DNA of 27,445 nucleotides from Chrysophaeum taylorii (Eukaryota; Sar; Pelagophyceae; Pelagomonadales; Pelagomonadaceae). The notes under the pieces are model-generated. The model did no database searches and was not told the origin of the DNA. It saw nothing but the letters and a program-made list of their open reading frames with translations. This document shows, piece after piece, positions 500-27,445 of this stretch. A program made the translations under genes and the position numbers. Each line of letters starts with the position of its first letter. Position 1 is the stretch's first letter. The stretch spans positions 1 to 27,445 of the forward strand of contig JAQMWT010000500.1 of the NCBI GenBank assembly GCA_029834535.1, written 5' to 3'.

Positions 500-648
500 G
501 CGATGCCGGCGTCGAGGCTCGCGTAGCGTCCCTGGCTCGCGTCGTCCCGTTTGCCGGGCGAAGGCTCCATCGCCGTCGCACGCGACAACCTTACTTCAAA
601 AAAATTTTTTTTACGACTACAACCTTACCCTGATCGCTGACTGCGGGC

Positions 649-794
649 GATGGAGGACGGTGCCTCACGAATCCTGAGCCTTGCGAGGGCCATCCGCCCT
701 CCCGGCGTAGGTTGGCACCTATTCGCCTCCCGGGCGTGCCGGTTGGCAGCCGGAACGTTCGCTGTGGGACGGTGCATGGCCGGGGTGGCGAAGA
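649..794 (+). mobile_element. Copy A of a short retroposon head (about 145 bp)
   Basis: The stretch beginning GATGGAGGACGGTGCCTCA is nearly identical, over about 145 bp and in reverse complement, to 24470-24614. The 24.6 kb copy has a recognisable start, a (TTAG)n tail and a possible target duplication, so this is probably a second insertion of the same short retroposon. Homology stops near 794 in the GGCGAAGA region, and the downstream sequence is different, so only the head is shared. I saw no convincing RNA polymerase III A or B box, so the origin of the head is unknown. Confidence 0.55.
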
Positions 795-18014: not shown

Positions 18015-18995
18015 TCAACTAGGAGAGAACTTGTGGAAAAGCGTGAGAAACAGGAAGGTGATAAGAAAGATGAGAGCCGTAAGGCATTTGGCCGGCATTG
18101 CTCTATAATCCTGGGTGTCAGTGTGTAAGATCTCCGTAGTGGCTTGCACTGTGCGGTGCGTTGTGCTTTCCATGTTGTAATCGATGCGATCGAGGAGTGT
18201 GCCTTGATCAATAACCATAACCGCAAGTTCCTTGATTATATGTGCAACCTGGTTCACCGATGCCACTAGAGTCTCGAGATCGTGGTCCCTTCGATCAAGA
18301 ACGTTTTCGTACGCCTCCAGTCGTCGGACTTGATGATTTAGCGCAACGTGTCGGCCTTCATCAAAAATGACATTATCAGGGTCTTGTGATTGAAGCAGAT
18401 CAAGTGCTTGCTTGTCCGCACCCGAGGTGGTAAATGAGAGATTGGAGTCTAGGTGTGTAACGATCGCCGAGGTTTGAAGCGCTCCATCGCCAAGGCCGGT
18501 GAGTTTGTGAAAGCGGCGGGACAATTCATTTAAGCGCTGTGCCAGCTTTTTTCGAGCATTGGTCTTGGTACAAGCCGCTGCCACCGAGTCAGACTGTGTC
18601 GGAGAAAACGGGCCTCCCACTGACAGCAGCTGCTCAGCTTTGCGCAAATTGTGACCGATTTGTTTCGAACAACTTCTGCAGTCACGGTCGAGGAAATTCT
18701 CTTGGTAATCAAAGGTGACGAGCAACCGGCGCTTGCAGAGTGCGACCATCCGCTTGAGTCCACAGTCTATTGACTCAGCGATAGACTCCACTTCATCGAA
18801 TTTGCTCACCCATGATGGTAGCTCGATCATATTCACCGCCAAAGCTTCGACATCATCCTCGGCCAAACACCAGCCGCTGGGTTTGGCCAGGAGCCCGTCA
18901 GCAGCATGCTCCTCTGTCCAACGCTCCAGCTGGCCCAAGGCACGCTGTGCGCTTCGACAATCCCGAAATATCGCCGTCAAGTCGCGACAAGCCAT
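18015..18995 (-). CDS. STX16: Syntaxin-16/Tlg2-type Qa-SNARE
   Basis: A 326-residue, single-exon protein for membrane fusion at the trans-Golgi network and endosomes. I place the start at ATG 18995, because the first residues MACRDLTAIFRDCRSA match the N-peptide of the syntaxin-16/SYP4/Tlg2 group (M-x-x-R-x-x-T-x-x-F-R-x-R), which binds the SM protein Vps45. The longer frame upstream has no ATG. The middle (LPSWVSKFDEVESIAESID ... KRRLLVTFDYQENF ... LAQRLNELSRRFHKL) is the helical Habc region. The C-terminal SNARE helix includes VIDQGTLLDRIDYNMEST, whose Gln is the zero-layer residue and whose DQG-LLDRIDYN is diagnostic for syntaxin 16. CLTALIFLITFLFLTLFH is the tail anchor. It should pair with Vti1-, syntaxin-6- and VAMP-type partners; these are not in this window. 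Confidence 0.93.
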   Translation of the reverse strand: MACRDLTAIFRDCRSAQRALGQLERWTEEHAADGLLAKPSGWCLAEDDVEALAVNMIELPSWVSKFDEVESIAESIDCGLKRMVALCKRRLLVTFDYQENFLDRDCRSCSKQIGHNLRKAEQLLSVGGPFSPTQSDSVAAACTKTNARKKLAQRLNELSRRFHKLTGLGDGALQTSAIVTHLDSNLSFTTSGADKQALDLLQSQDPDNVIFDEGRHVALNHQVRRLEAYENVLDRRDHDLETLVASVNQVAHIIKELAVMVIDQGTLLDRIDYNMESTTHRTVQATTEILHTDTQDYRAMPAKCLTALIFLITFLFLTLFHKFSPS

Positions 18996-19554
18996 TGGAG
19001 AAGGCAACCTTGCCATAATATCCTCGATGTTAACGACGAGACTGGCAACAGACTCCACAGCGACATGAAGCCCACCCCCTAATTTGTGCGACCCCTGGGT
19101 CTGAAACTAGGCCCTAATCTGAGTCACGCAGAGTCATCGGCTTGGGCATGCTAACTCTAGCGTGTCGGCTCCCCGTATCTTTGTGTGGGTAAGTCCACGC
19201 GAGGCCACGTCAGCGACGGCACAAAATGTTCTAAATCGAACACGAACTTCGGGCCGCGAAAGCACGCGATCGGAGCAGCGCTCCCCCCGCCGGACTTTGC
19301 GTCTACGGAAACTTCACGACCTCATCTGTCGATCAGGCCAAAGTAGCCCTAAGAAGCAGGAATTTCCGCCACAGCCACCTCCACGTCGCCCTCCTATTGG
19401 AGGAAGGTGGAAGACCCATCTCCAGCGCTGCGAGGGTTGAACGACAAAGGTACTTTTGAGACGAACGATCCACCAACTGAGGTGGTGCGGGAGGGGGAAG
19501 CGAACGAGGAGGTCATGATGACCGACGATGCCTGCCCCGTGTAGCGGTAACGCC
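18996..19554. other. Upstream region of the syntaxin gene, nothing recognised
   Basis: This stretch must hold the syntaxin promoter, but no TATA box or other element stands out. A minus-frame extension of the syntaxin ORF continues to a stop at 19107-19109 without an ATG. Plus-strand frames here give low-complexity basic text and no recognisable family. Confidence 0.4.
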
Positions 19555-19826: not shown

Positions 19827-20793
19827 AGAGATAGAAAATTTGAATTAGGGTTAGTACCCCCTATTCTAGGGTTAGTTCCCTTAACTTTAGCACCTTTTGA
19901 TTTAAGAAAACGCTGTGTTATTCACACCGGCTGTCCTCGTTCTAGGAGGCAGATTCGAGGGCAGACTACCACTGCTCTCTCGCTCTGCTGAAGGGTAACT
20001 GTGGCAGTAACGCCCATCCCCCCACTTGCCTGCCTGCCACCTGACTTACCTTGATTGTTGCTCTGGTACTGCCCTTGCAATTATGGGGGGGTGTCATCTT
20101 GAAATCCTCACCTGCGCTTCCACTGAGCCCAATGTACCAGGCATTTTTATTGCTTTCTAGCTGTCTTCTTGCTATTACCCTCATTTGATTGTCCGATTTT
20201 CGTGATGGCGTGAGGTGTTTGCGCTGAGATCGGGCGTGTGGTGCTTTGACCCGCGGTTCGGGTTGGGAGAAAGGGCTGTTGAGGCCTCTGGCCCGGCCAA
20301 GAGGGGCGGGTATCTGAGAAAACCACTACAGTGGTCTCAGAAACGGGAATCGATAGTCCAACTCCGGACTATCGATCTCCTGTTTTTCGGCGGCGAGTCG
20401 GTTCGTAACGGTCGAGTGAGTGCGAAGCCGACGCATTTGTGGGTGAATATCCAGGGGATCACGGGTACCGCCGCGGGGTTCATTTTACGTGATTCGGATC
20501 GAACGGGGAGCGGAGTCACTACGACTCAACCAGGCAACACATCATTAGACCTAAAGAGGCAAATAAAGAGTAAGCCCTAACCTAGCTGGCAGACCACCTC
20601 CCTGACGGCGAGCGACAGCACCGGGAGGGCTGTCCATAGTCTTCACGCGCAAGGCAAATACTTCCGTAATTCCAGCGCACCGGTACCTGCGCGCAGTCAG
20701 GCGGCTGCCGGCAAGTGTCGTCTGACGAAAAGGAGTACAACAAGCGAGTTGTGAGCGTTCGGATTAATCTTATTGTCCGGACAAAGCGCGGTC
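19827..20793 (+). other. Region before the plus-strand gag: probable leader and LTR remnants
   Basis: No gene is visible. TTAGGGTTAG-like words occur near 19849 and 19875. An AATAAA (20562-20567), followed by AGAGTAAGCCCTAACCTAGC and then TGGCAGACCACC, would fit the end of a 5' LTR and a primer-binding site that starts with TGG. Without the 3' LTR, which lies outside the window, this cannot be confirmed. Two strong hairpins at 20314-20376 are listed separately. Confidence 0.35.
20314..20376 (+). other. Pair of adjacent perfect hairpins
   Basis: CTGAGA-aaa-CCACT-ac-AGTGG-TCTCAG (20314-20340) is followed eight bases later by ATCGATAGTCC-aactcc-GGACTATCGAT (20349-20376, 11-bp stem). They lie 420 bp upstream of gag in the LTR element. 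Possible roles are RNA packaging or dimerisation signals, or a DNA-level inverted repeat. The conserved CUGAUGA core of hammerhead ribozymes is absent. Confidence 0.6.
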
Positions 20794-22623
20794 ATGGCAG
20801 AAAGACCAATGACAGAACGACCGCAGTGGTTTCGGGACGCACAGGAGCGTCTGCAACGATTCAGTGCAGGGACTCCATTTGCGTCTATTGGAAGAACACC
20901 GTTCAGCTCGCCCTTTCAACGGCCGGAAGCCGAGGAAAGCGGCATCGGAAGAGAGGCAAGATCATCTGATAGCCTCGACAGCCCCCCAAGCGTGGTCATC
21001 CTTCCGGATCCACGCGCCGGCGAAGGGGGAGCTACGGTTGCGCCAGACGCAACTTCAAGACCGGGTGAGCCGACGTTCCCGCACGCACGACCTTACGAAC
21101 GTGCGATGAATGCTACGGAGTCATCTCGAGCGGAACCCGGATCGTCTACGGCGATGCGTGGACCAGAGGAGAGTGCACCTCCTAGGCCACCATCCGCGAA
21201 CACGAGAGCTACGGCAGATTTTCGTGTGGATACCGACCCCGAGATTCTGCAGGCCATCAACGAGCGATTCGAGATGTACCAGTCGCAGATCGAGCAAGTC
21301 ATACGTGAACTTGAGAGTACCCGCCGCGACGCGCAACAACAACGCTCAGAAGTGGAGCGGCAGCGGATCGACAACGATCGACTTCGACGAATGGTGGAGG
21401 AATCCACGCGGGTGCGTGCTCGAGAGGCACGGCCAGCCTCTCCGGATGCTACGCGTGTTACGCCCGAAGAGGGTGGCGCTGTATCGGCACTGACCGACGA
21501 TCAGCCACCGCGAAGTCAACCGGTGCCTATCCCGCAGCATCATACTGACCCCGGTTCAGCACGTCCTCGTAACGAAGAAGAGATACTTCAGATCAAGAAG
21601 GGGGCTGCTGGTATGACTCGTATCACGCTTTCGGATCTTAATGGGCAAATTACTAAGGACCGGGAGGAGGTGGACGCGTGGTGGATGCAATTGCGGCGTA
21701 TGATGGAAGGCAGAATTGACAAACCTTCGATAGCGATGAACTTGATCGGAGGCGAGTGTCAACTCGCCCCTACGGAAGCTTGTCGCAAATGGGAAGCCGA
21801 ACGGCCGCAGATGTGGAAAAAATACAAGGAAGGAACCATCACATTAAAAGAGCTGCGCCAGCATGATGAGGACTGTCTGGATGCTATGCAAGAGGCGACG
21901 AAACTTCCTTGCCCACCTCGGGCTACGGTTGAGGAGCTTGAACGTGAATGGTTCAATTTACGGCAAGGGAATTTGTCATTGAAGAAGTATATTGCGCGCT
22001 GGGTGCAGAAATTCGGCCAGTGGCGAGCAATGTCGGGTCGCGATACTGACCCTGCCGCGTTTCGGTCGCACTTCACTGCTGGGCTCAATTCTGAGCGCTT
22101 GCGGACGAGTGTCGAACTTGCCCAGGCCTCACCTCATATGAAAGCATCTACTCTGACGCTCAATGATGTCATTCAATTGACCATCCAGATCTCCAAGATT
22201 TTGGGAGCCAACCCTACTGCCAACATCGAAGAGGCGATTATGAAGGAGAAGGGAAGGGAGCGCGCTCCACGGATGAGGAGGGAGCAGCAGCAGCAGATGC
22301 AGCAGTTGCAGCCAGTACAACGGGTTGGTTATGTTACTGACTCGGGATTTGGAACCTGGCTACCACAAGGGATAGATGCCAATGCGCGTCAAGCAATTAC
22401 GACGTGCCTTAGTTGCGGCCGGCATGGTAGTTTTTACCACGACAACGGTGTGTGTCCTGTGCCGGACAATCCCAAGAGGAAGAGATGTGCTGCTCAGACG
22501 TTGACGAATGCGGGTTTTCCAGCGACGCCAGAGGGACAGGAGCAACACCGACGGGCGCTTTTAGCTGCAGCAGGACAGGCTTCAGTGACGCAGCTAGCGC
22601 CGCACGTCGTGCAACAGCCGTAG
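20794..22623 (+). CDS. Gag polyprotein of the methyltransferase-bearing retrotransposon
   Basis: 609 residues from ATG 20794 (GTCATGG context). Layout: disordered proline/serine-rich leader (residues ~1-150), coiled coil (~150-215: YQSQIEQVIRELESTRRDAQ, EVERQRIDNDRLRRMVEE), linker, then an all-helical capsid-like region (~270-480) with EEVDAWWMQLRRMMEG, EELEREWFNLRQGNLSLKKY, ARWVQKFGQW, HFTAGLNSERLR. That region resembles the Ty3/gypsy retrotransposon gag domain (W...F...L.QG..SV..Y...F..L). Near the end CLSCGRHGSFYHDNGVC gives CX2CX7HX4C, a diverged zinc knuckle for RNA binding. It ends with UAG at 22621-22623, and the same frame continues without a gap into the protease ORF. Confidence 0.82.
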   Translation: MAERPMTERPQWFRDAQERLQRFSAGTPFASIGRTPFSSPFQRPEAEESGIGREARSSDSLDSPPSVVILPDPRAGEGGATVAPDATSRPGEPTFPHARPYERAMNATESSRAEPGSSTAMRGPEESAPPRPPSANTRATADFRVDTDPEILQAINERFEMYQSQIEQVIRELESTRRDAQQQRSEVERQRIDNDRLRRMVEESTRVRAREARPASPDATRVTPEEGGAVSALTDDQPPRSQPVPIPQHHTDPGSARPRNEEEILQIKKGAAGMTRITLSDLNGQITKDREEVDAWWMQLRRMMEGRIDKPSIAMNLIGGECQLAPTEACRKWEAERPQMWKKYKEGTITLKELRQHDEDCLDAMQEATKLPCPPRATVEELEREWFNLRQGNLSLKKYIARWVQKFGQWRAMSGRDTDPAAFRSHFTAGLNSERLRTSVELAQASPHMKASTLTLNDVIQLTIQISKILGANPTANIEEAIMKEKGRERAPRMRREQQQQMQQLQPVQRVGYVTDSGFGTWLPQGIDANARQAITTCLSCGRHGSFYHDNGVCPVPDNPKRKRCAAQTLTNAGFPATPEGQEQHRRALLAAAGQASVTQLAPHVVQQP

Positions 22624-24279
22624 GTGGTCTACACAGCAGCACAGGTTCCAGGTGCAGGTCAACAGCAGTTGGTTGCAGGCTCTCAACAGCGTTTAGTTGC
22701 AGGCACTCAACAGCAGGTGGTCCGAAGGCAGCCCGCAGTGCAGCGGACCGCTCAGACCTCGGTGCGCCTGGAGGATCTGACTACGGCTCTCAACACGATG
22801 AACTTGCTTCGTCGAGCACAGCAGACGGCTCCAACGGTTAGAGGGCAACAGCCGCAGAGAGCAAACCCTAGCCAGCGCACTCATGGTGTCGCCGCTCAAT
22901 GGCTTGAAGTGCTTGGCGAAGATGAGGATGACGCTAAGCGAGCGGACTACTGCACTGTGCAGTATTCTGAGCTCATGCAAGGCAACATGTATGACGGTGA
23001 CGGTGACGAGGTTGGAGACCATGATGATAGCTTCTCTGCAGAAGGCTATTCCCCTGGTGAGCCCATGGAACCTCTTTCCTTTTTGGTCATCACTGAAGAT
23101 GCGTGGGTGGAGGAGCAGGGGCAAAGTACCGAAGTGACCGGAGTTGCACCCAGAGTTCCCTCGGAAGACGAAGATAATCTTGATGGACTGCGATATACGA
23201 TCGTTCGTGTGGGACGAGATACCTTGGTTGTTATGGATATAGTGCCTCCGAGGGACGACTGTACCGAGCGTTACGCCGCTCACCCTTCCATCTCTTCGGA
23301 TTTCGAGAGTTTCTGCCCTCAGACTGCGTTGAATACCACTAGGGATACCGACCATCGTGAAAATAAAGCCGCGAGGTACGATGGCACGAGATCCGCCTCT
23401 TTGACGTATGTGCCTGTGGCTGTCTCTTCGCTAGATGGTTCGAAAAATTCCATCATCGCTGCCGGTTTGGATGGCGTGGCTGATTCCCCCTACATCGATC
23501 ACCGCTCGTATCGCAAACTTGATCATGACGGCAAAATCATCTATCGTCAGCCACTCCCTACGATTCGTACTCTGAATGGGCCAGGAGGTTCGGGAGCTGC
23601 TATCCGAGAATGGGTCATTCTCCGGATCTCGTTGGTGCCAACGACATCCATACTGCTCATGTTCTTTGTTGGTCAAACTAATGGGCAGTTACTATTGGGA
23701 GCACGAGAATTACGACTCTGGGGTGCGATTTTGGATTATGCAACAGAGAGAGCTATTTTCCGGCGTTCTGAAGTCACCATCGGAGTTCTCAAGAATCGGA
23801 CTTCCACCTCGCCACAAGACCAGCATGGAGTTGTCCTTTACAATGGTGCATTCGATGCGACTCCGCAGGTAGTGCATATGTTCCCGACAGCTAAGCTCGC
23901 TATACAAGACGGGAATACCCAAACTTGGACGCCAGTTGGTAAACCGTGGAGTTATGACAGTCTGCTGCGCTCTATTCGTACCAGAGCGAACCACCATCAT
24001 GCTCATCGCGGTGATAAGACTGCTGAAAAAGCGGAAGACCAACTTCAATGCCCTGCAGACGAGGAAGATATAATCCCTCATTTCGCGTACGTGACGAGTA
24101 CTCGATTTCTTCTTCCGAGCCAACCGTACTTCTTGGAGATAGAGTGCGATGTGCCGCTGGAAAAGGGTCAAGTATTCCGACCTCATCGGTCACTCCTCCC
24201 AGATCACCGCCTCGTACCTGGCTCCTATTCATCGTATTGCTCCGACGAGCCCAACGAGGTTCATGTGGCCGTGGAGCAC
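22624..24279 (+). CDS. Pol N-terminal part: glutamine-rich linker and aspartic protease
   Basis: This frame continues gag after a single UAG and has no ATG of its own near its start (first codon GTG), so it would need readthrough. A glutamine-rich stretch (~1-60) and an acidic linker precede a retropepsin-like domain at about residues 265-385. AAGLDGVADSPYIDHRSYR occupies the active-site loop, where D-(T/S)-G-A is expected but D-G-V-A is found. NGQLLLGARELRLWGAILDY is the ILG-x-x-(F/L) element before a conserved (I/V)DY. The altered catalytic triplet suggests a damaged enzyme in this copy. After residue 552 (CAC at 24279) the frame is broken by a short retroposon. Confidence 0.68.
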
Positions 24280-24623
24280 TAACTAACTAACTAACTTCAG
24301 ACCTCTCCCGAGCATGGGAGCCAGGCCGGACCGACAGGAGCCAGTCCGGAATCACGGGCCTGTAGACGAGGAGCGCCGAAAGGTCGGTCGGCGGAGAGTG
24401 ACCATCAAGCTTGTCGCCATGCGACGAGGAGACCGCGATGTGACCGATAACCAACTCGTCGATAACCTTCCGTCTTCGCCCCCGGCCATACCCCTTCCCA
24501 CTGCGAACGTTCCGGCTGCCAACCGGCCCGCCCGGGAGGCGAATAGGTGCCAACCTACGCCGGGAGGGCGGATGCCCTCGCAAGGCTCAGGATTCATGAG
24601 GCACCGTCCTCCATCGTGGTCAC
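24280..24623 (-). mobile_element. Short retroposon with (TTAG)n tail inserted in pol, copy B
   Basis: Read on the minus strand the insertion starts ATGGAGGACGGTGCCTCA (24614), shares its first ~145 bp with 649-794 and ends in (TTAG)4 (24280-24295). CGTGGAGCAC (24270-24279) and CGTGGTCAC (24615-24623) look like a diverged target duplication. Removing 344 bp joins the protease frame to the methyltransferase frame (VAVEH then ISEEPIGID), which strongly supports the limits. Lack of a recognisable reverse transcriptase makes it non-autonomous. The (TTAG) tail suggests mobilisation by a LINE that uses such tails. Confidence 0.75.
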
Positions 24624-26197
24624 ATCAGTGAAGAGCCCATTGGTATCGACCCCGAAGTCCCGGTGGTCGAAGGCGAGATCATGCCGCATGAAGGATGCGT
24701 CAACATGCAGCTAGAAGCCACTGAGGACGTTTGTCATGCGACTCTCACGGCTGCTGTTGACGAGAATGAAGTCGAGGAGGATGTCTGGAGTGACAGACCT
24801 CGTCCTGAGCCACCTCTAGATGAAGAAGTGAAAAAAACACCAGAAATGGAGATGGAGGCGACCGCTAAGGAGCTGCTATCTAAGCACGCCTCCTTCGTTT
24901 GGATACCCATCACCAACACCTTTGTCGTCGTCTACATTGCTGGCGCTGGAGGATCAACGTTGGGTATCCGGCGATGCAATGAGCCATATGGCAGTTCATT
25001 TCGCATTGTCTTGGCTTTGGATGCTTGTCCCCAAGCCAGAGCCACCTTAGAGCTCAATTTTCCGAAGATTCCCTATGTTTTGCACGAGTTGGGGGAATCT
25101 CATCGTCGTACATACGACTTGGTGTTGTCGTATTTACATTCAGATTTTTGGAGGCATTCTTATTTTCACGCAAGTCCGCCGTGTATCTATGGGTCGACAG
25201 CCAATTTGCACTACAGGGAAGCACGCAAGGGCGCTACAATTACTTCTTGGGTCCTGCGTCATTTCCGCAACGCACCTTCTGTAATTGGACATGGACGCTC
25301 GAGCAGGAACCATCAGTGATCCCTTTTGTGCATCACCAATGTCATGTGCCGCGCATTGTCGATTTTTATAGTATCACACCAGAATTGCTGTGCTCGCGCA
25401 CGCGCCTACTTGCTTGCAATGCTCGCTTGGAACTGCCTTTATTATCGCGTGTACCACCGAATTTACGGGACCGTTTCGGGCCAGCGTTGGGATTTACAGG
25501 TGGTCACCCGCTCATTATAGTGAACAGTTTCTCATCTACGCGCCCGGCTATCGGCCCTGCCTTCACGGTGACGCGCAATAAGCTCCACCTAGGACCTCAT
25601 TTCTCGGACACCCGTCCACTCACGTTGCAAATGCACCAGGAAATTATGACCGTTCCTGCTACGTGGCAATGGGGTGAGAAAGTTTCAGAGACAGCAGCTA
25701 TGAAGATGCTTGGCAGTATGGTGCCACCCGCGACTATGACGCGGATCGGGCTAGCAGTGCACAATTCGTTTGGCCCTTCACTTCGAAATTTGGGTAAGTT
25801 GCGGAATGTTGCGACGACTACGATAGCCCAACCCGATCACCATATTCTACGGTTTTCACCTTTTGCTGTCGAGTCGCGCATTCCAACGCTCGACCCTGCC
25901 ACTCGAAGTGTGTCATGGATCTCGCCCGATGACCTCTACTCTCCTGCGAGTCCTGCACCATCAGCTGCTGCCACCACCACCCCGCCACCACCTTCGGTTA
26001 CATCGCCTGGGGCGGCTCAATCTTTTGCGGGGGGCACCGTCGCCACTGCAGTTATGCTGAGCAACCAAGCCAACAACCAGCCCCCCGCAACTGCTGGAGA
26101 AGAAGGCACCGCGAAGGAGCGACCTGCGTATTTTAATAAGTACGACGTTCCGTGGGCGGACGCGCCTCACGACGAACATGGTCAACCTTACCGGTGA
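24624..26197 (+). pseudogene. C5 cytosine DNA methyltransferase domain in pol (one frameshift)
   Basis: The family transfers methyl from S-adenosylmethionine to cytosine C5 in DNA. Motifs in order: I, TFVVVYIAGAGGSTLGIRR (about 24919-24975; consensus dlFaGaGG); II/III, VLALDACPQARATLELNFP (about 25010-25065); IV, FHASPPCIYGSTAN with catalytic Cys at 25182-25184. A frameshift near 25285 follows, then VI-like WTLEQEPSVIPF (E-Q for E-N); VIII, CSRTRLLACN (25391-25420); target-recognition and IX region, RPAIGPAFTVTRNKLHLG; X, RPLTLQMHQEIMTVPATWQW ... KMLGSMVPPATMTR (about 25610-25745; consensus GNaVPp). All core motifs of a complete enzyme are thus visible. A proline/alanine-rich linker follows to the TGA at 26195-26197. 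Its position between protease and reverse transcriptase is unusual for a Ty3/gypsy element. Confidence 0.85.
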
Positions 26198-26199
26198 TG
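26195..26199 (+). promoter_or_regulatory. TGATG stop-start overlap between methyltransferase and reverse transcriptase frames
   Basis: The TGA ending the methyltransferase frame overlaps an ATG (26197-26199). If one 29-bp duplicate downstream is ignored, that ATG opens the frame leading into the reverse transcriptase leader (MPPHLADQASMQVIPP). Such overlaps support termination-reinitiation in some retroelements; here this is inferred. Confidence 0.4.
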
Positions 26200-27227
26200 C
26201 CTCCTCATTTAGCGGATCAGGCGAGCATGCAGGTCATCCCTCCGATCAGGCGAGCATGCAGGTCATCCCTCCGACCGTCGCGCAGGTCGAAGATGTGATG
26301 ACTGATTTGGGTATTACTGAGCATCCTGCTTTAGATGATGACGAGAAGCTGATGATGAAGCATCCAATCTCGTATTCGAGGGCATTTTTCGATGATGTGA
26401 TGAGACCTGTCGATTCACCTGAAGTGACGCTCCGGTTCAAATAAGAGAACCCCGACTCCCGTCAAACTCTCGCCATATCGGTTGTCGAAAGAAAAGATTG
26501 AATGTTTGCGAATACAGATTGAAGAATGGACCCGATACGGAGTTATTTGTCCCGCGAATTCTCCATGGGGTTTCCCTATTTTGATGTTGCCTAAGAAAGG
26601 TGCTGAGCCTGGCATTTCCAATGCTTACAGGGCAGCTGTCGACCTACGGCGCCTTAATGCATTGCTCAAGGATGATAGCTGGCCGAGTGTGAGCATGGCA
26701 GACGCGTCGATGTTTCTCATCGACAAGATCTGTCGTTCCAGTTTGGATATTCGTTGGGGCTATCACAATTTACGATTGTCGCTAGATGCACAAGATGTGG
26801 TAACCTTCACTAGTCCTCTGGGAGCGTACAGCTACATGCGTCCACCTTTGGGAGTCAAACCAGCCGGAAGTTTGTTCTGTAACCAGTTAAACACTGACTT
26901 GTCGAAATGGCTATATCGTGATCTCGTGGCATATATCGACGATATTCGCGCCGGTCACGCGGATACAAAGAATCACTTGCAGTGCCTTGTGCAAGTTATT
27001 CCCCGTCTCGCCTTGAAAGGGTACAGCGCCAAGATCAAGAAGATCCATTTCATGCAAGAAGTCATTGAGTTTTTGGGTCATTTATCCACCCCGAACGGAC
27101 ATCTTCCATCACCGAGGTCTTTAGGAGCCATCAGACACATGCCAATTCCTGGCACTTTGTCGGATGCTGACCCTAAGAAGCAAATGCGGTCTTTCCTTGG
27201 AATGGGGCGTTTTTGCCGGCGTTATGT
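26197..27227 (+). pseudogene. Ty3/gypsy reverse transcriptase (frameshifted)
   Basis: The leader (HPALDDDEKLMMKHPISYSR ... SPEVTLRFK) ends at TAA 26442-26444. Polymerase sequence resumes one frame over at about 26446 (TPVKLSPYRLSKEKIE). Motifs: SPWGFPILMLPKKG; AAVDLRRLNALL; motif A SSLDIRWGYHNLRL with catalytic Asp; motif B SYMRPPLGVKPAGSLFCNQL; motif C LVAYIDDIRAG with the Asp pair at about 26938-26943; then KKIHFMQEVIEFLGHLSTPNG and QMRSFLGMGRFCRRYV. YIDDI and FLGH place it in Ty3/gypsy and not copia or BEL. The frame shifts again near 27227. The polymerase core itself is intact in one frame from 26446 to 27227. Confidence 0.85.
26215..26272 (+). repeat. 29-bp perfect tandem duplication in pol
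   Basis: The unit GATCAGGCGAGCATGCAGGT plus CATCCCTCC occurs at 26215-26243 and 26244-26272 with no differences. Since 29 is not a multiple of three, the duplication shifts the frame at the start of the reverse transcriptase ORF. The perfect identity suggests it is recent. Confidence 0.92.
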
Positions 27228-27445
27228 AATTTTGCGAATGTTGCAGAGCCATTAAGACAACTGACGTTGCCGGACGTAAAATTCGAATGGACGAAAGAGT
27301 GTCAGGCAGCTTGGGATGCCATCATCGAGGCTATTGTCACTTCGAAGGGTGTCTACCATCCTGACTACTCGCTGCCTTTCTACATTCGAACTGATTCATC
27401 CGCGCATGGGTGGGTGCTTACCTATTTCAAAAAAGGTACCATCGT
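27228..27445 (+). pseudogene. RNase H start of pol, cut by window end
   Basis: One frame after the reverse transcriptase gives NFANVAEPLRQLTLPDVKFE, WTKECQAAWDAIIEAIVTS and FYIRTDSSAHGWVLTYFKKG. This is the usual Ty3/gypsy connection (nFa.iA.PL..Lt....f.Wt.ec..aF) followed by the first RNase H strand with its catalytic Asp (TDSSAHG; consensus TDAS--GIG). The domain removes RNA from the RNA-DNA hybrid. The window ends within it. Confidence 0.8.

Follow-up and report, generated by a model that had tools for sequence, protein, structure and literature searches.

A Ty3/gypsy-type LTR retrotransposon in the 27,445-nucleotide stretch of DNA analyzed here (the window, which is the whole of contig C500) carries a cytosine-C5 DNA methyltransferase (MTase) domain between its protease and reverse transcriptase (RT), as the initial annotation had proposed. 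This arrangement is borne out by RVT_1, RNase H, H2C2, and rve domains in the window and in a second copy, and by the many copies found in the 70.8 Mb of genome searched. Substitution ratios within one family indicate that the gypsy MTase domain is kept under purifying selection. From the sequences, we propose with a probability of roughly 0.55 that the MTase is translated as part of Gag-Pol and that it methylates cDNA of the element itself. Among the main defenses against transposons is DNA methylation; transposons that carry a methylating enzyme turn the usual logic round.

The gypsy element and its methyltransferase domain

The element begins at window position 20000 and is cut off by the contig end (Table 1). 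The start of the 5' LTR was placed by a genome search in which 34 of 48 other rows begin at query 699-703, which is window 19998-20002. A search with the LTR only gave 41 other rows, of which 15 stop at window 20330-20332, 20 reach the query end, and 6 end elsewhere. Directly 3' of the putative primer binding site lies a hairpin with two perfect 11-base arms (20349-20376). Contigs C494 and C362 each hold a pair of LTR matches on the same strand, spaced 9.7 kb apart; the window copy lacks a 3' end. Inverted neighboring LTR matches in C344 and C384 were taken as nested or rearranged. A Pfam scan gave no match in the N-terminal part of Pol. Downstream of RT, the copy in contig C311 (L038) has an H2C2 zinc finger (E = 2.2e-17) and an rve integrase core that scores 32.1 bits, just short of the 32.6 cut-off. 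Taken together, the window and C311 place the protease first, followed by MTase, RT, RNase H, and integrase. The window element is therefore of the Ty3/gypsy LTR type, with RT, RNase H, and then integrase in order. DIRS elements have a tyrosine recombinase in place of a DDE integrase, and the H2C2 and rve-type integrase in C311 speaks against membership of its family in that group. Beside the element, an open reading frame at 18015-19106 on the minus strand has a SNARE-domain match just below cut-off (24 versus 26.8 bits) and is a possible host gene.

Table 1. Features of the gypsy element in the window. Motif names (I, IV, VI, VIII, IX, and X) are those that we take to apply at the positions given.
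Feature	Position	Strand	Basis or detail
5' LTR, 331 bp, TG...CA	20000..20330	+	boundary from genome search, LTR search, and sequence reading
Putative primer binding site, first bases TGG, directly 3' of LTR	20332..20347	+	inferred from sequence reading, without tRNA match
gag-like open frame, ends at stop	20755..22623	+	Pfam Retrotrans_gag below cut-off (E = 0.017)
Pol N-terminal part, in gag frame	22624..24282	+	sequence; aspartic-protease-like site 23464-23499 called by eye
High-copy repeat inserted immediately 5' of MTase	24283..24616	+	L036 aligns on both sides without the repeat
MTase N-terminal half	24618..25289	+	profile matches; motif I 24924-24965, PxC motif IV 25167-25208
MTase C-terminal half, other frame	25277..25942	+	motif VI-like 25292-25318, VIII 25385-25420, IX 25541-25675, X 25706-25747
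MTase-RT linker, local tandem duplication near 26214-26277	25943..26427	+	sequence reading, comparison with L036
Reverse transcriptase, RVT_1 (PF00078), YIDD at 26932	26428..27255	+	Pfam, E = 3.7e-12
RNase H, truncated by contig end	27246..27443	+	PF17919, E = 4.4e-9

The window copy is dead and carries several lesions. Its MTase domain (24600-26197) is split over two overlapping frames, 24600-25319 and 24983-26197, the second of which is in register only from near 25277, and the frame switch falls between 25289 and 25292. The initial annotation had thus located the frameshift correctly (near 25285) but counted too few lesions in recording only one, as a stop separates gag from pol (absent from L025, one other copy compared there), a repeat of about 334 bp is inserted, and the frame also shifts after the MTase, before RT, and at the RT end. 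The extent first given to the feature, 24624 to 26197, likewise held in part. Its start was set by the repeat insert that sits just 5' of the MTase; the core domain ends near 25942, and the remainder to 26197 is linker. The repeat itself, which has a CTAA-rich end, occurs in at least 40 other places at 98 to 99% identity and in several of the copia loci fetched, with a partial copy at window 648-794 on the minus strand; it may be a SINE or MITE.

Taken by themselves, the two window halves do not reach the 22-bit Pfam cut-off for DNA_methylase (PF00145); they score 14.7 bits (E = 0.02) and 17.4 bits (E = 0.003). Copies of the same family (family A) with an open frame pass this cut-off at 31.4 to 35.6 bits (L036, 35.3; L037, 35.6). 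A profile free of family-A sequence, which combined one protein each from families B and C (described below) with one environmental protein, matched the window halves at E values of 1.9e-38 and 1.1e-47. With this profile, none of 90 other window open reading frames did better than 0.2 and none of 1,000 shuffles better than 0.42. The C5 MTase domain of the initial annotation is confirmed, and the failure to resemble C5 MTases that the initial annotation had allowed for did not occur. Family B scores 25.5 bits with PF00145 (cut-off 22), a Pfam scan gives the family C MTase no match of its own, and three of the five sequences in alignment A5 (31 to 80% identical to the first) match at E ≤ 0.01. 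The motif I glycines, the catalytic PxC, the motif VI Glu, and the motif VIII RxR are all present in A5; the motif I glycines, D58, P110, C112, E152, R184, and R186 are invariant in all five sequences. Motif IV of the window MTase contains SPPC and its motif VI-like segment reads LEQE, the gypsy MTases having EQE or EQV in place of ENV. Two AlphaFold models were of low confidence (mean pLDDT of 37 and 28).

Copies, selection, and two diverged gypsy families

A copy free of the frameshift, which the initial annotation had suggested looking for, is L036, where a single open frame of 966 codons extends from the protease region across the MTase and on into RT. In family-A copies with an open frame, the MTase is in frame with RT. 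The genome holds at least 159 matches to the N-terminal MTase half and at least 110 to the C-terminal half, counted among the best candidates scored and with fragments counted separately. RT matches listed number 140, the window RT included. Among the 98 of these at ≥75% identity, the C-terminal MTase half lies ≤3 kb upstream in at least 64 (median distance, 226 bp), and some MTase match lies within 5 kb in 74; none was found for the other 24. These spacing counts are lower bounds, as the rows used were 103 of the 110 listed for the C-terminal half and 97 of the 159 listed for the N-terminal half. Other copies therefore retain the MTase before RT at nearly fixed spacing, where a chance insertion, as first envisaged, would have left copies lacking the region.

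The ratio dN/dS was 0.08 for L036 versus L037 (dN = 0.115, dS = 1.417) and 0.09 for L036 versus L039; the value of 0.94 for L037 versus L039 comes from sequences that are too close. The window halves gave 0.21 and 0.26 against L036, 0.06 and 0.15 against L037, and 0.07 and 0.15 against L039. Of the 14 pairs compared, the 5 that involve L040 were saturated. The elements show no CpG depletion (observed/expected, 0.96 to 1.23; four other stretches, 1.14 to 1.43), and TpG/CpA is only slightly raised (1.09 to 1.22 versus 0.70 to 1.09 elsewhere).

Two more gypsy families, each represented by one examined copy (L040 for family B, L041 for family C), carry a diverged MTase at the same place, with RTs about 60% identical to that of family A. 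A first count had found an MTase beside none of the 42 listed RT matches at 59 to 62% identity; the idea that these are MTase-free was ruled out, since both L040 and L041 belong with them, and the zero arose because detection failed on diverged MTases. With the family-B MTase as the query, a match lies 502 to 543 bp upstream of 22 of the 42, and there is none among listed matches for the other 20, L041 included. The L040 frame has 3,067 codons by the search table, with RT and rve within it. At least 114 genome matches to the family-B MTase were found (the best 114 of 1,074 candidates scored), 90 of them without a stop and 76 of these full-length. Among the 113 other listed matches, 20 are 97 to 99% identical to the query, which suggests that family B has recently been active.

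MTase identities between the families are 37.5% (A-B), 37.4% (A-C), and 44.6% (B-C), and those of the linker plus RT N terminus are 56.0, 53.9, and 77.4%, respectively. The two regions group the families alike, which fits inheritance of the domain along with the element, although three sequences make this a weak test. Given a diverged MTase at the same place in B and C, the domain probably traces to a common ancestor of the three families.

A copia family with a methyltransferase of its own

A separate Ty1/copia family has a C5 MTase between protease and integrase. Of 57 PF00145 matches listed in the genome, two resemble host genes. Among the 55 others, 27 were fetched, and all 27 match the copia MTase profile; 22 of the 24 larger copia-MTase loci also hold the copia integrase region. 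A copia RT match is listed downstream on the same strand for 30 of the 55, at 2.95 to 4.1 kb in 29 cases and at 6.6 kb in one. Locus L010 is one frame of 1,952 codons with MTase, RVT_2, and an rve match below cut-off. At motif IV the copia MTase reads LPC; it also has ENV and a motif X, and its Pfam match spans the first part only. Between motifs VIII and IX, L010 residues 478-782 form a segment of about 300 residues that has no Pfam match and is well conserved among copies. Over 28 pairs, dN/dS for the copia MTase ranged from 0.08 to 0.51. Direct repeats sought in five copia loci gave no clear LTR pair, a distant pair in L020 falling in the 334-bp repeat. In contig pairs C10/C297 and C25/C521, copia RT matches occur at nearly the same place and score; such pairs may be duplicates or haplotypes, in which case the copy counts would be slightly too high.

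A profile comparison of gypsy and copia MTases detected no similarity between the two, both profiles being shallow. This suggests that they represent two separate captures.

Enzyme class, role, and host

No DNMT class could be assigned to the gypsy MTase. Profile searches of the PDB with alignments A2 and A5 reached DNMT2 and other cytosine MTases at E values of 0.021 or worse, and Dnmt3 was absent from matches at E ≤ 10. With A5, a glycosyltransferase-like protein, which is unrelated, ranked first (E = 0.17); four MTases scored below E = 1 (E = 0.29 to 0.49), three of them bearing the name DNMT2 or tRNA (cytosine38) methyltransferase and the fourth that of a cytosine-specific MTase. The profiles aligned to the host DNMT2-like protein over just 94 and 145 columns, without a full-length DNMT2 match, and showed no profile similarity to the host DNMT5-like protein (E = 0.27 and 0.35). 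SNF2 was not found in the element frames scanned with Pfam. Protein searches with two polyproteins found no relative. The search with A2 found one environmental protein, P0003 (34% identity over 61% of the query; hhalign E = 5.5e-32), in which a Pfam scan gave no match. No relative of A2 or the copia protein was found in viral_contigs, nor of A5 in genome_contigs. A phage search gave one weak match annotated as a C-5 MTase (E = 0.02), and PHROGs families described as DNA methyltransferase were matched by L036 (best E = 9e-10), L040 (best E = 1.7e-6), and L010 (best E = 8.8e-9).

An active enzyme in the particle is the reading best supported by the position inside Pol, the catalytic residues, and purifying selection. 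The MTase would be translated as part of Gag-Pol, be packaged with RT, and methylate cytosines of the new double-stranded cDNA before or at integration, such that a new insertion would land already methylated. DNMT5 is a maintenance type in fungi, and a host DNMT5-like enzyme could copy the methyl mark at each replication. The mark might protect or disguise the cDNA, or keep the element in a low-cost silent state; a benefit of this kind would explain why selection has retained the domain. Speaking against this reading are the undepleted CpG and barely raised TpG/CpA of the elements, the EQE or EQV in place of ENV, the low-confidence structure models, and the missing Pfam match of family C. In this compact genome, self-methylation of cDNA is directly testable.

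On the sequence evidence, cDNA is the likeliest substrate and RNA is a live rival. De novo CG methylation is reported for some retrotransposon DNMTs in PMC5890265, which also raises RNA methylation for LINE-borne enzymes. An action on RNA, whether on the element's genomic RNA or on a tRNA primer within the particle, would fit the PDB results, in which three of the four MTases below E = 1 bear DNMT2-type names, and the hhalign comparison with two host MTases, which put the profile nearer to the DNMT2-like protein (single-comparison E = 3.1e-5) than to the DNMT5-like one (E = 0.35). However, the PDB matches are not significant and rank behind an unrelated protein, and an alignment of 94 to 145 columns may reflect a short shared core. 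We consider this reading unlikely. Methylation mainly in trans, by which the enzyme would alter host chromatin for the element's benefit or be used by the host, is unlikely. It draws on the high copy number and on the scarcity of host-like genes among the PF00145 matches listed (two of 57, with all 27 fetched others copia-type), but that search was exon by exon, with 27 of 55 matches inspected, and host DNMTs can escape it, while the nearly fixed spacing inside Pol points to action in the particle.

The domain could also be catalytically dead and retained in Pol for binding or for structure, as the replacement of ENV by EQE or EQV and the lack of a Pfam match of its own in family C might indicate. 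We find this improbable, because SAM-binding and catalytic residues stayed invariant in five of five sequences while identity between families fell to 36 to 45%. A chance motif string, an assembly chimera, or a one-off insertion would account for window halves that score below the Pfam cut-off. Such an origin is refuted by the recurrence of the domain in dozens of places at nearly fixed spacing, by its one open frame in L036, and by the failure of shuffled sequences to score.

Beyond the proposed self-methylation of cDNA, we raise as a tentative and doubtful idea that, in one algal lineage, C5 MTases were captured separately by gypsy and by copia elements and that the genome's de novo cytosine MTases are chiefly or solely those of the elements, with the host supplying just maintenance (DNMT5). 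If this is true, parasites write the mark that then silences or shields them.

DNMT-carrying retrotransposons are already known, and the variety seen here is unusually diverse. PMC5890265 describes them in Symbiodinium (DIRS and LINE) and Klebsormidium (gypsy). KnitGypsy-Dnmt3 of Klebsormidium nitens resembles the present element in having a C5 MTase in the gypsy Pol frame, several copies, and purifying selection. It differs in its charophyte host, the present host appearing to be a chlorophyll-c type alga. By its published description it may also differ in its DIRS-like repeat structure (two copies here show a plain direct-repeat pair 9.7 kb apart) and in its Dnmt3-class MTase (the PDB profile searches with the gypsy MTase listed no Dnmt3). 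As with SymbioDIRS-Dnmt3 and SymbioLINE-Dnmt, as described there, very many retrotransposon C5 MTases occur in one genome, the LINE type having an orphan MTase class, but those are tyrosine-recombinase or LINE elements, whereas ours are integrase-bearing gypsy and copia. One sentence in PMC12344493 places retrotransposon DNMT3s in "LTR Copia and DIRS families", citing PMC5890265. A copia assignment is thus in print, as here, but for streptophytes, dinoflagellates, and DNMT3; in the part of PMC5890265 available, the streptophyte element is called gypsy and the Symbiodinium copia elements lack a DNMT domain. Brown-algal gypsy elements with chromodomain, Tudor, and NADAR (PMC12477816) likewise have captured chromatin or enzyme domains in Pol, but the text available describes no C5 MTase among them. 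Literature searches, with subscription journals and preprints mostly outside their coverage, found no C5 MTase in stramenopile, haptophyte, or cryptophyte retrotransposons (including the parts available of PMC9998398, PMC6338049, PMC3145265, and PMC5963040). A third lineage, two LTR superfamilies, more than 55% divergence between gypsy families, and selection within one suggest that such capture is recurrent and useful.

An acquisition in a new lineage fits the evidence on the host. A host-gene look identified the MTase on contig C634 as DNMT2-like by eye, and contig C621 encodes a C5 MTase and SNF2 in one open frame (L009:3968-9901), a host DNMT5-like protein. The light-harvesting protein beside the DNMT2-like gene has best matches named VCPI, PCPI, and FCP, which are presumably names from chlorophyll-c and related algae. 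The plastid and light-harvesting genes suggest that the host is probably a chlorophyll-c type alga, and so probably neither a dinoflagellate nor a charophyte; genome size and the plastid contig make the former unlikely, and the light-harvesting type speaks against the latter. The plastid genes are two adjoining members of the PsaA/PsaB family on a 103.6-kb contig; in one of them, a 300-residue stretch is identical at 252 of 300 positions to its best PDB match, the psaB chain 9ygv_B.
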